Source: Cristatella mucedo (Eukaryota > Bryozoa > Phylactolaemata > Cristatellidae). Taken from it: a DNA stretch of 64,000 bases. The stretch covers positions 3,812,501-3,876,500 of the forward strand of contig WPIO01000008.1 of the NCBI GenBank assembly GCA_009760855.2, read 5' to 3'. The notes beneath the pieces were generated by a model. The model worked only from the letters and a program-made list of their open reading frames with translations. It had not been told where the DNA came from and made no database searches. Of the stretch, positions 33,889 to 62,167 are shown in pieces. Both the position numbers and the translations under genes were made by a program. Within the stretch, counting starts at the first letter, position 1. Each line of letters opens with the position of its first letter.

Positions 33889-35448
33889 CTAGTGGAGCCA
33901 AGGCGGCAGAAGGCCGACGGCCACCATGTACTGTCTGCACTGCTCTAGCTCGATGGCTGCCAGGTGCGAAGGCGCAAACGAAGGCGGCAGGAATGTTGTC
34001 GGGCAGCGCTGCTGCTGCTGCCGCAGAGGAAAAAGGATGGGCAGCGACGGGCCCATGATCGCAGCGGCGGCGGCGGCTGCTGTGGCCGCCGCGGACCGAG
34101 AATCCGCGTCAGTGGCGAGCTCCTGCCGGCCCATGATACGGTCGATCGTGAAGCTAGCGGGCGCCTTCGTGCTGCCGACGCCGCAGCTTGCGGCCGCAGC
34201 CGGGGCGAGACAGGCCGTCGCCGCGGGGCGGCGAGCTGCAGCTGCGGCGTCGACTCCGTCGGCGTAAGCGCCTTCGCCCGTGGCGGCGGCGGCACCGAGG
34301 AGCGACAGAGGCGGCGGCGCGCAGTGCCGCTGCGGTGTCAGCGGTGGGCAGGCGCCGCCGCAACAGCGTGGCGCTTCCCGAAGCGGTGCACGTCCGGTCG
34401 AGTAGGATGGCTGCGAGTACAGATGAACGGCGGACGCCGCTGTGGCTACGGCGGCAGCGACGGCGGCCGCAGCAACTCGGTGCCTGTCGGTGGCGGTGGC
34501 GCAGTTCGGAGCGACCGGCGGTGGATCGGCGGCGCGCCGCTTGTAGCGCTTTCGCCGGCGAAGGAAGCTGCCGTTGTCGAACATGTCCTCGGACGCCGGG
34601 TCCAGCATCCAGTAGTTGCCCTTGCCGGGGTTGCCCGGCTCTCGCGGGATTTTAACGAAGCAGTCGTTAAGCGACAGGTTGTGCCGTATGCTATTCTGCC
34701 AGGCGGGGAACTTGTCGCGGTAGTATGGAAAGCGGTTCATGATGAAATCGCATATGCCGCTCAAGGTCAGCTTCTTGTGCGTCGACTGCAGTATCGCCAT
34801 GGTGATGAGCGCGATGTACGAGTACGGCGGCTTGACGGCCGCCGCCGGGCTGCCGCCGCCGACGGCGGCGCTCTTTTTCTTCTTCGCCGCTGCATTCGCC
34901 GCCGCCGAGGCGATCGACTCCTCGAGGTGTGGCAGCTGCCGCTGCTGGTCGCGTCGCAGTGCGTCGTCGTCGTCGCGGGCAATGCTGCCATAATCGGCCG
35001 AATCGCGCCGGTCGGCGGCACTCGAAAGGCTGCCGTCCGACTCCGAAGTCAGACTGCAGCGGCCACCGCACGCAGCGTCGGCGATGGAGGCGCCGTCGTC
35101 ATCGCAAGGCGATGGCTGCGGCGACGAAGACGACGACGAAGAGGGGGCCTCGCCGGGCGGTCCCTCGGTGGCGCTGGGCGACGCCGTCCGATCGGGCGAG
35201 CAGCGGGGAGCGCCGACGACAACGGCAATGCATTCACCACCGTCCGAAAGCATGGCGGCGCGTTCTTGGCAAGCTTCGGTCGCCAAACTGAAACGTCTCG
35301 CGATCGTCTCGTCGAGCTTTGGCGACAGCCGGCGAAGGCGAGCCGTTATAAGGGCCGGGCGGCCGCGTGCCGGCGATGCGGCAGGCGAGCTAATGATTGG
35401 ATACGCAGGTTCGGGATCGGCACCGCCTACGACGACAGAGAGGGGCAT
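33889..35448 (-). CDS. FoxD: FoxD-class forkhead transcription factor, single exon
   Basis: An intact 519-codon frame. The forkhead DNA-binding domain is at residues 206-304 (genomic 34537-34833). It starts [17 protein letters not shown], has the recognition-helix sequence [20 protein letters not shown], and ends [37 protein letters not shown] and the ending are FoxD-class features. An eh1-like Groucho-binding motif, FTIDRIMG, lies at residues 433-440 (34129-34152), as in FoxD repressors. The N-terminus is acidic and Ser-rich, and the C-terminal half has alanine runs and a QQQQ tract. The first ATG (35448) has a weak context. The ATG at 35253 (Met66) sits in GCCGCCATGC and is the likelier start, giving 454 residues. 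The gene lies about 1.2-1.4 kb downstream of the ZNG1 stop, in tandem. Predicted role: nuclear sequence-specific regulator of development. Confidence 0.95.
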
Positions 35449-35933
35449 TCGGTGGGTAGCTCCGCCTTCTAAGGGGCGGAGGCCTCAACTCAGACAGCCG
35501 AAGACTACTACATCGGCGGTTACGGAGGAGTCGCTGTCAGTACTGTTTTCGCGAGCCCCTCTTTCCCAAGCCCTAAAGTTTCCCTCGAAGACTGCGAGGC
35601 TGTAAATCTTACTCGTCCAAACTATTCCAAACTAACACCGCTCTTCAATGATTGCACCAGGCGATATACACCGGCCCTAGGGCGGGACGCAGCGTTGGCT
35701 TTCACTGTAATGACTCACTGTATGAGTGTACGAGTAATACTTGGATGACAGTCGCCAAATCGCGCCGGCGTGAAGAAGGGCAGAACCGACAAGGCGCTGC
35801 ACCGGAGAGCTGCACGACTCGGCTGCGAAATTCCAGCAGTCCGCGGGGTTACCGATCAGCATTGCTATCCACAGGCAGAAAAGTCGCTACAAAGCTACAA
35901 GCAAAGCCGCCAAGGCAGCTCAAACGCGTTCGT

Positions 35934-35966
35934 GCCGATAACAACACGAGACGTGTTGTTATCGGC
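35934..35966. repeat. Perfect 15-bp inverted repeat, 3-nt loop
   Basis: Arms GCCGATAACAACACG (35934-35948) and its exact complement (35952-35966), upstream of FoxD. Confidence 0.9.
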
Positions 35967-36027
35967 AATGTTACAGTAGCACACCAATGTTGCCGAGTTT
36001 TGGGAGGTGGGCTGAAGGCAGAGCTAT

Positions 36028-36056
36028 GCAGGTGAGGACACTCAGTGCTCACCTGC
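36028..36056. repeat. 9-bp inverted repeat GCAGGTGAG / CTCACCTGC
   Basis: A short perfect stem with an 11-nt loop. Each arm contains CAGGTG, an E-box-type hexamer, so a paired binding site is an alternative to a hairpin. Confidence 0.6.
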
Positions 36057-36347
36057 TTTGAGCTATTGTCTGCATACAAAAGTCTTCGGTTTCTCGAACA
36101 GCGTGCTTGAATGCGATCGCATTCGCTGCTGCTCACGAACGTCTCGTTGGAGAGCCGATGGGTAAAACAACCACCGCCCGCCATTGCTGCACTCAAGACG
36201 ACATGATAGCCTAGCTCTGATGGGCGAGTGTGCTCTTTTTCCAGCTCTTGGATCTACACTAGCACGACACTAAAGAACGCAATGCAGGAAGATCGCTTTA
36301 GCTCAGCAATTTAAAGAGCAAAGTGGCGATCCAAAATTGAACTGCAG

Positions 36348-36353
36348 TTTATT
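36348..36353 (-). terminator. ZNG1: Possible ZNG1 poly(A) signal
   Basis: AATAAA on the minus strand, about 325 nt past the ZNG1 stop codon and upstream of FoxD. A plausible 3' end, supported by the hexamer only. Confidence 0.4.
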
Positions 36354-36677
36354 TTGCTTTGCATTCGATGCCTTTCACCGCTGCCAGTTCGCATAAGCCT
36401 TGAGAGCACTCCAAGCTCCGGCTCAGTGTGACAGCATGGCTGGACAATTGCACCTATCCCACCCTCTCGCAGAGAGAGAGAGAGAGAGAGAGAGCTGACG
36501 CGAGAGGTCGAGCATCAAGTCTCGGATGCACGGGTGCAGCGGCAGAGGAGAAGAAAGACGCGTGTCGAGGACATGTGCTCACTGCTGCACTGTAAGCACA
36601 GCCGGTACCATTGGACGTCGCATTTTTGGAGAAGCCAGCAGGCAGCCAGCTACTGTACAGCTGGTGGAAAAGTACCA

Positions 36678-60305: not shown

Positions 60306-60432
60306 AGAGAGAGAGAGAGAGAGAGAGAGAGAGAGAGAGAGAGAGAGAGAGAGAGAGAGAGAGAGAGAGAGAGAGAGAGAGAGAGAGAGAGAGAGAGAGA
60401 GAGAGAGAGAGAGAGAGAGAGAGAGAGAGAGA
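60306..60432. repeat. (GA)n microsatellite, about 63 units
   Basis: 127 bp of uninterrupted GA. The 60-97 codon Arg-Glu and Leu-Ser frames across it are artefacts. Confidence 0.98.
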
Positions 60433-61019
60433 CACATTGCATGTTCTAGATGAGGCAGAAGCAGCAGAGGATGGGCACAAAAGTGCTCTCAGGCAGAGCC
60501 CATAGGATGTCCGAACCAATGAAGCGGCTTCAAAATGCAAGCCTCTTGGCAACCGGCATGTCCTTGTGTCCTAAGCAGTGAAGGTTCCTCGCGAGGCTTC
60601 TACTTAGAAGCTTGCGGAGAAAAGGCGATGGTCGAACAAGGCCGAGGTAGGTAGCACACACAAAAGGTAGCACACACAAAAACGCTCTGGATCTAGCACA
60701 CATAAAAACGCTCTGGATTTGACCTTTTTTTTTTTATCAAGAATGGGACAAACTATAAGTTTCGTGGTTAAATGGTTTTTAAAATTATGCTGCTCCGACA
60801 TTACAAGCAAATAACTTACCGACTATAATTTGACTTTGATTCGTGAATCCGTCCCCTTAACATCTAACAGATCCTTGCGATGAATGTGGCTGCAAGGTTA
60901 GTCAAAAAACTCCGGGGGTTAATTAAGCCATGCGTGTTTTTTGCAGGAGCTTCCATGGCTTTTCGTCGATGAGCAGATACTGAACAAAATTCTTACGCTG
61001 ACCCACAAGACCAGCCATT

Positions 61020-61280
61020 GCTTGGCTCTTCACACCTAGCTGAACTGCTCCACCAGTTTCAGCTTATTCGTACCTTCAGGTCTTCAATGGACAATAAATT
61101 AGCTGTTCCATTCTTCCGTCTAAAGACTGTTGGCAACAGAAGCTTTTGCCCAGCACCGGGTCCTGGACTATGGAACTCACTTTCACAACTCTTATGTAAC
61201 GACATCCACTCTTCTGCTACCGCCTGCATGCGGCACATCCTCCATTCCAGCCGTCCTGAGCTGCTACTTCCATGATACTC
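61020..61280 (+). mobile_element. Remnant of a second LINE (RT C-terminal region)
   Basis: The frame reads LAVPFFRLKTVGNRSF then GPGLWNSLSQLL. This fits the C-terminal motif of L2/CR1-type ORF2 proteins (RLKTFGDRSF..WNSLP), but the nucleotide sequence differs from the L2 family above, so it is probably another family. Confidence 0.5.
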
Positions 61281-61332
61281 AATTATTCACAAAAATATTT
61301 TTCGATGGAGTTGCATCGTGCAGGCCTCCGAA

Positions 61333-61421
61333 TGAGAGAGAGAGAGAGAGAGAGAGAGAGAGAGAGAGAGAGAGAGAGAGAGAGAGAGAGAGAGAGAGAG
61401 AGAGAGAGAGAGAGAGAGAGA
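61333..61421. repeat. (GA)n microsatellite, about 44 units
   Basis: A pure GA run, followed by degenerate GA-rich DNA to about 61590. Confidence 0.97.
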
Positions 61422-62032
61422 AACAGAGAAAACTATATGAAGAGAGAGATCTACCTAGATTGAGAACTGAAGAGTGAGAGAGTGGAGAAAAGGGAGGAGA
61501 GGAAGAACAGGACAGGGCAAGACAGGGGAGAGAGAGAAAGGAGAGAGCATAAGATCGAGTGAGAGAGACGAGAGAATGAGAGGCTGGGAGACGGAGTGAT
61601 GATAGTAGCACATGGCATGCAAGTATGAGCACCCAATGCACTGATGCATGCAAAAAGGACACAACTCAGCGCTAAAGGATGAAACTAAATTCCTGCACCA
61701 TCTTATTGGATGCGAGGTGCAATGCTAGCAGGGTGTAGTACACACAAAAAAAGATCCAATGCATTAGATTGTATCATTCACCGCATGCGCCCCATTGTCC
61801 TCGTGTGCAAAGTGCCCACTGCACCGCCAGAGCTCCACCGGATGGCACATGTGCGTCCAGTGAGAAGCTCACTATGATACATTTGCAGGCATCCTTTTAG
61901 CAAGGATGTCTATTTAGCCATTACACGGACCGTTAGAGATCAGTAAACGCGAGCGAGTAGAGAATTGAAGGCTTCAGCAAACTAAAAAGTCTTCTCTTGA
62001 CTCATGTCTACAGTCCACAGGCTACGACTCAC

Positions 62033-62167
62033 CTTCATCCTGAGAACGTCCACTACATCGCCTTCTTCGTCCTTGACAGCCCTTTCCCATAGCAGCTCTT
62101 GCAGGCAATTCTCAAATCGCTCTAATGCCAGATTTCCTCCAATGTGAACTGTAGCACTGGTCACACT
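62033..62167 (-). CDS. ZNG1: ZNG1 (CBWD, CobW-family) coding exon
   Basis: A 135-nt exon, 45 whole codons, phase 0 at both ends, between acceptor GTAACGTTGCAG and donor ATGAAG then GTGAGT. It encodes SVTSATVHIGGNLALERF, then ENCLQELLWERAV and KDEEGDVVDVLRMK. This matches the start of the CobW C-terminal domain in CBWD/ZNG1, whose human form has a beta strand VTITFEV, then FIQNLLWEKNV and VIRLK (from memory). It splices in phase to the exon at 46767-46896. The upstream exons with the GTPase domain (P-loop, CxCC metal site) should lie right of the window or in the last 1.8 kb. Confidence 0.9.

Follow-up and report, generated by a model that had tools for sequence, protein, structure and literature searches.

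In a 64,000-nucleotide window of genomic DNA (C676:3812501-3876500 of a 572-Mb assembly in 688 contigs), a FoxD gene lies immediately downstream of a ZNG1 gene, and both are on the minus strand. From the end of the ZNG1 stop codon at 36678, the distance is 1229 bases to the first candidate FoxD methionine (35448) and 1424 bases to the second (35253), in agreement with the original prediction, which had placed FoxD 1.2 to 1.4 kilobases (kb) past the ZNG1 stop codon on the same strand. We consider it reasonably probable that this one-strand tandem was inherited from the bilaterian ancestor and has been kept by FoxD control sequences in or beyond the 3′ introns of ZNG1. By our own arithmetic, which assumes 25,000 genes and two FoxD copies, the chance that ZNG1 is the immediate same-strand upstream neighbor of FoxD is about 4 in 100,000, and the chance of ZNG1-FoxD adjacency on any side and strand is about 1.6 in 10,000.

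PMC10642216 describes ZNG1 as a GTPase and zinc chaperone from which methionine aminopeptidase 1 is supplied in yeast and zebrafish. An exon search that used human ZNG1 as the query and covered 144 kb at this locus recovered exons that run in order along the minus strand from 40 kb outside the window into it. The resulting model has 14 exons, spans 68.3 kb (104978 to 36678 in window-equivalent coordinates), and encodes 377 amino acids (aa). Exons 1 to 11 lie outside the window (104978 to 78594, window-equivalent), while exons 12, 13, and 14 lie within it and together account for 29% of the coding sequence. These last three had been placed by splice phase in the original prediction, and all three take their place in the longer model, in which all 13 introns are GT-AG and in phase. 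Small exons were likewise placed by splice site and phase, with exons 6, 9 to 11, and 14 picked under GT-AG and phase constraints; the model is weakest at the exon 10-11 junction and at its start codon.

A protein search with the joined exons bore out the proposed identity: Pfam returned cobW at 169 bits and CobW_C at 60 bits (profile positions 2 to 94 of 94), and a match to YjiA covers residues 38 to 371. Because the YjiA match extends through exon 14, this short last exon is supported independently of human ZNG1. Compared with human ZNG1, the product shows 55% identity over 336 aa. Near its N terminus we find only VPVLV, compared with CPELVP, which we take to be the N-terminal METAP1-binding motif of ZNG1; the start of the model is tentative. 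Walker A (GYLGAGKTT) is at residue 45 and NKTD at residue 201, and between Walker A and ETTGLADP, ahead of Walker B, GCLCC at residues 104 to 108 provides the CxCC metal motif as defined for ZNG1 in PMC10642216. Sequence comparison thus confirms the three window exons and the eleven outside it as ZNG1, a predicted COG0523 zinc metallochaperone GTPase.

No second ZNG1 was found in a genome search with the joined product, in which all 10 matches are exons of this same gene. Since no second copy was found, the window exons do not come from another CobW gene of this animal, and the better match to such a gene that the original prediction had considered did not appear. The only other PF02492 match, on contig C3, was rejected as a candidate; judged by eye, it is an FtsY-like GTPase on a bacterial contig. 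C3 (1.5 Mb) has a bacterial look, with dense open reading frames (ORFs), FtsY-like and RmuC-like genes (by eye), and 34% G+C in the 10 kb read, and our impression is that it is perhaps a Rickettsiales-type symbiont. Scans of prokaryote and viral collections, which reach close relatives only, gave 22 and 27 pattern matches, respectively, none of them a confirmed relative.

The downstream gene is a single ORF with one forkhead domain. Its best match among Protein Data Bank (PDB) chains is “Genesis” (210 bits), which we take to be FoxD3, followed by FOXC2 (155 bits). The forkhead domain is 92% identical to that of human FOXD3 and at most 71% identical to those of the non-D reference classes. The gene was placed in a 34-row tree made up of the window FoxD, 17 reference sequences, and 16 of the 20 Fox loci fetched; it falls inside a 7-row FoxD clade with support of 100/98 and shows no special tie to FOXD4. 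Four fetched loci were excluded for shortness or for lacking the motif, and among the 32 Fox matches 4 were left unfetched; several rows, all outside the FoxD clade, overrun an exon end and have long branches. After the forkhead domain, toward the C terminus, an Eh1-like stretch, FTIDRIMG, was recognized by eye, and an Eh1 repressor motif in this position is presumably a FoxD trait. Domain, best structural match, and tree position confirm the gene as a FoxD, as first proposed. A second FoxD, also intronless, occupies a 422-aa ORF at C63:217469-218737 and carries an Eh1-like FSIDMLIG (by eye).

The gap between the two genes is 8% repeat-like and contains a single poly(A) signal, AATAAA at 36353, about 325 bp past the ZNG1 stop codon. 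Its two longest ORFs (134 and 127 aa) gave no Pfam match. Coordinates within the window are collected in Table 1.

Table 1. Window positions of the FoxD gene, the 3′ part of ZNG1, and the gap between them
Feature	Position	Strand	Remarks
FoxD, intronless ORF	33889..35484	(-)	531 aa between stop codons; possible start codons at Met 35448 and Met 35253
ZNG1-FoxD gap	35485..36677	(-)	ZNG1 3′ untranslated region and presumed FoxD promoter
ZNG1 exon 14	36678..36739	(-)	Last exon, stop codon included; starts at residue 358
ZNG1 intron 13, 10.0 kb	36740..46766	(-)	Proposed FoxD regulatory territory
ZNG1 exon 13 (GLVSIDGQAQKVVVQ...)	46767..46896	(-)	
ZNG1 intron 12, 15.1 kb	46897..62032	(-)	LINE-like fragment at about 57.6-58.6 kb
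ZNG1 exon 12 (SVTSATVHIGGN...)	62033..62167	(-)	

Copies of an element resembling a long interspersed nuclear element (LINE), about 78 to 97% alike, lie at 486-1788 and 57611-58580, with further copies at window-equivalent 96.5, 102.3, and 109.6 kb and at several places on C63; a match to reverse transcriptase falls in the copy at 763-1752. About 17 kb downstream of FoxD, long overlapping ORFs on the minus strand (14692-16361) have an immunoglobulin-like look and gave no Pfam match.

The host had been described as an animal that does not look like a vertebrate. COX1 on a 21-kb mitochondrial contig (C688) reads under code 5 (TGA Trp, AGR Ser, ATA Met, and AAA Lys), and because it follows the invertebrate mitochondrial code, a vertebrate is excluded. 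Fragments of COX1 on C166, C83, C549, and C299 are probably nuclear copies. Seven Hox-like stretches were fetched, six of them with a homeodomain, and five were used. Two segments, C221:3113966-3223827 and C665:11633496-12042103, each hold a Hox4-like gene and a KLTGP-bearing gene, and C665 additionally holds a posterior gene with SYITRQKRW; going by Hox signatures, we take these latter two genes to be the Lox5 and Post2 of spiralians, respectively. FoxA, FoxC, FoxD, and FoxF are each represented by two rows in the tree. Together, the Hox groups and the paired Fox genes suggest the genome of a spiralian with an old large-scale duplication. An arthropod, considered on account of the duplicated Fox genes, was set aside once the Hox peptides had been read. 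None of five telomere repeat types was found at the eight ends of four large contigs.

The same pair of genes is found together in vertebrates. PMC4306731 lists the human 9p24 order as WASH1, FAM138C, FOXD4, CBWD1 (printed CWBD1), C9orf66, DOCK8, and KANK1, which places CBWD1 beside FOXD4 as stated in the original prediction, and PMC10496407 lists both CBWD2 and FOXD4L1 at the chromosome 2 fusion region. In CBWD1-FOXD4 (9p24.3) and CBWD2-FOXD4L1, a ZNG1 gene stands beside a FoxD gene, as it does here. The human CBWD1-FOXD4 pair presumably has the strand arrangement and order seen in the window. In the frog, the genes given downstream of Dmrt1 are Kank1, Dock8, Cbwd3, a Cyp2j6-like gene, and FoxD5a (PMC12467463), so that Cbwd and FoxD again occupy one chromosome segment; the frog list has the Cyp-like gene between Cbwd3 and FoxD5a, whereas the gap here is 1.2 to 1.4 kb, and neither of its two longest ORFs has a Pfam match. 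Adjacency is read directly from sequence here, in an animal whose Hox signatures point to a protostome, taken from a published gene list in human (PMC4306731), and interrupted by one gene in the frog (PMC12467463). DOCK8 is described as topologically associated with KANK1, “BWD1,” DMRT3, and FOXD4 in PMC8104183. Among the literature matches listed, linkage was described for vertebrates only, and no paper combined CBWD, FoxD, and microsynteny. Ancient Fox microsynteny is an already described class, and this kind of arrangement is known: according to PMC7859237, Irimia et al. (2012) reported ancient microsynteny for some Fox genes, in which a developmental regulator stands beside another gene across phyla, as here. 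Because such microsyntenies have been described as a class, the ZNG1-FoxD pair is less surprising, and it may already be on the list of Irimia et al. (2012).

Inheritance from the bilaterian ancestor is the likeliest and simplest reading of these data, though it is not established and draws on few lineages; the two genes have probably been together since early animal history. Under this proposal, the bilaterian ancestor would have carried ZNG1 and then FoxD in tandem on one strand. The two genes have unrelated jobs, one encoding a zinc chaperone and the other a forkhead transcription factor, and ZNG1 would be a bystander. FoxD control sequences would be situated inside the long 3′ introns of ZNG1 or past them, and the genes would stay together because a break between them would damage FoxD control. 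ZNG1 introns 11, 12, and 13 (16.4, 15.1, and 10.0 kb), which are the closest to FoxD, are also the three longest and together account for 62% of the intron length (permutation P = 0.0037, from a test chosen after seeing the data), and their repeat-like share of 0.16 to 0.29 lies inside the 0 to 0.53 range of the other ten. Introns of this length are consistent with a regulatory role for the 3′ half of the gene. Vertebrates presumably possess several FoxD genes, of which FOXD4 has ZNG1 as its neighbor. It is possible, if doubtful, that the ZNG1 introns have held FoxD control sequences since the bilaterian ancestor and that with each later FoxD duplication, independently in vertebrates and in this lineage, exactly one locus kept ZNG1. 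The FOXD3 genomic regulatory block of vertebrates, described with Synorth (PMC2745767), offers a parallel in that a FoxD target sits among bystander genes, as proposed here; that block is defined by conserved noncoding elements, whereas none was found here in a comparison of low power.

Several observations weigh against inheritance with regulatory upkeep. Across the 13 introns, length shows no significant rank trend with nearness to FoxD (Spearman 0.38, P = 0.19). No above-background ZNG1 match was found in 110 kb around the second FoxD (50 kb left, 58 kb right); the parallel with vertebrates in this respect is as compatible with a bystander that one copy lost following duplication as with passive loss. 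Comparison of the window locus with this second FoxD locus, a low-power test against a diverged paralog only, gave no convincing unique noncoding match. Repeat filters reduced 1830 raw matches to 6, of which the best two are AT repeats and the third is a 43-bp match at 81% in ZNG1 intron 6 (E = 0.35); a control with reversed sequence, in which the filters were applied to just one side, produced chance matches of up to 94 bits. The translated comparison left 30 of 2355 matches, and many of the best 25 of these 30 contain stops. One translated match corresponds to part of the forkhead domain read in a different frame. The best (E = 2e-10), located some 16 kb upstream of ZNG1, involves frames from both strands and has the look of a repeat.

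The wider gene order and the published record add to these points. The vertebrate block runs on into Dock8, Kank1, and Dmrt1, whereas here DM matches lie on C110 and C43 and Dock-family matches on C222, C32, and C105, with PGM matches on C144, C550, C50, and the bacterial C3; the contigs fall short of full chromosomes, and the DM, Dock, and PGM families are broader than Dmrt1, Dock8, and Pgm5. A search for the KN motif of Kank gave no match, which does not show that Kank is absent. Among the families tested, the ZNG1-FoxD pair is all that is kept here of the vertebrate block. The caecilian Rhinatrema is given other genes beyond Cbwd3 (PMC12467463), and the planarian Schmidtea, with a fragmented assembly, is reported without Fox microsynteny in PMC7859237. 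The bilaterian linkage put forward in the original prediction is thus upheld as far as the published human and frog pairings go, and it is tempered by the few lineages compared, a human polarity that is presumed, the negative report for Schmidtea, and the second FoxD without ZNG1.

Linkage that is ancestral but passive, with no regulatory reason and with neighbors that rearrangement has not parted in some lineages, would account for two FoxD loci that share no convincing noncoding sequence, for a second FoxD that does without ZNG1, and for the wider-block families, of which three of four were matched on other contigs and one (Kank) gave no answer. We nevertheless regard it as unlikely: immediate adjacency in lineages so far apart would hardly persist by chance once neighbors were scattered, and the three longest ZNG1 introns adjoin FoxD. 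One non-vertebrate lineage was examined, and this, together with the report on Schmidtea, leaves some room for a coincidence in which the pair formed independently here and in vertebrates; the chance of about 4 in 100,000 under the assumptions given above, and a strand and order that presumably match those in human, make such a coincidence improbable. The 1.2-kb spacing on one strand could also reflect joint transcription of ZNG1 and FoxD, or their co-regulation through coupled functions, which strikes us as very improbable. The AATAAA signal past the ZNG1 stop codon permits separate transcripts, the second FoxD has no nearby ZNG1, and we know of no pathway common to a zinc chaperone and a FoxD patterning factor.

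That ZNG1 and FoxD have stayed adjacent in bilaterians so far apart points to constrained gene order. Within ZNG1, the long 3′ introns are a concrete place to look for very old FoxD control elements, and the second FoxD, without ZNG1, provides a natural comparison within the same genome. An inherited pair would further suggest an old origin for the human CBWD-FOXD4 arrangement, which would then not be a by-product of primate segmental duplication.

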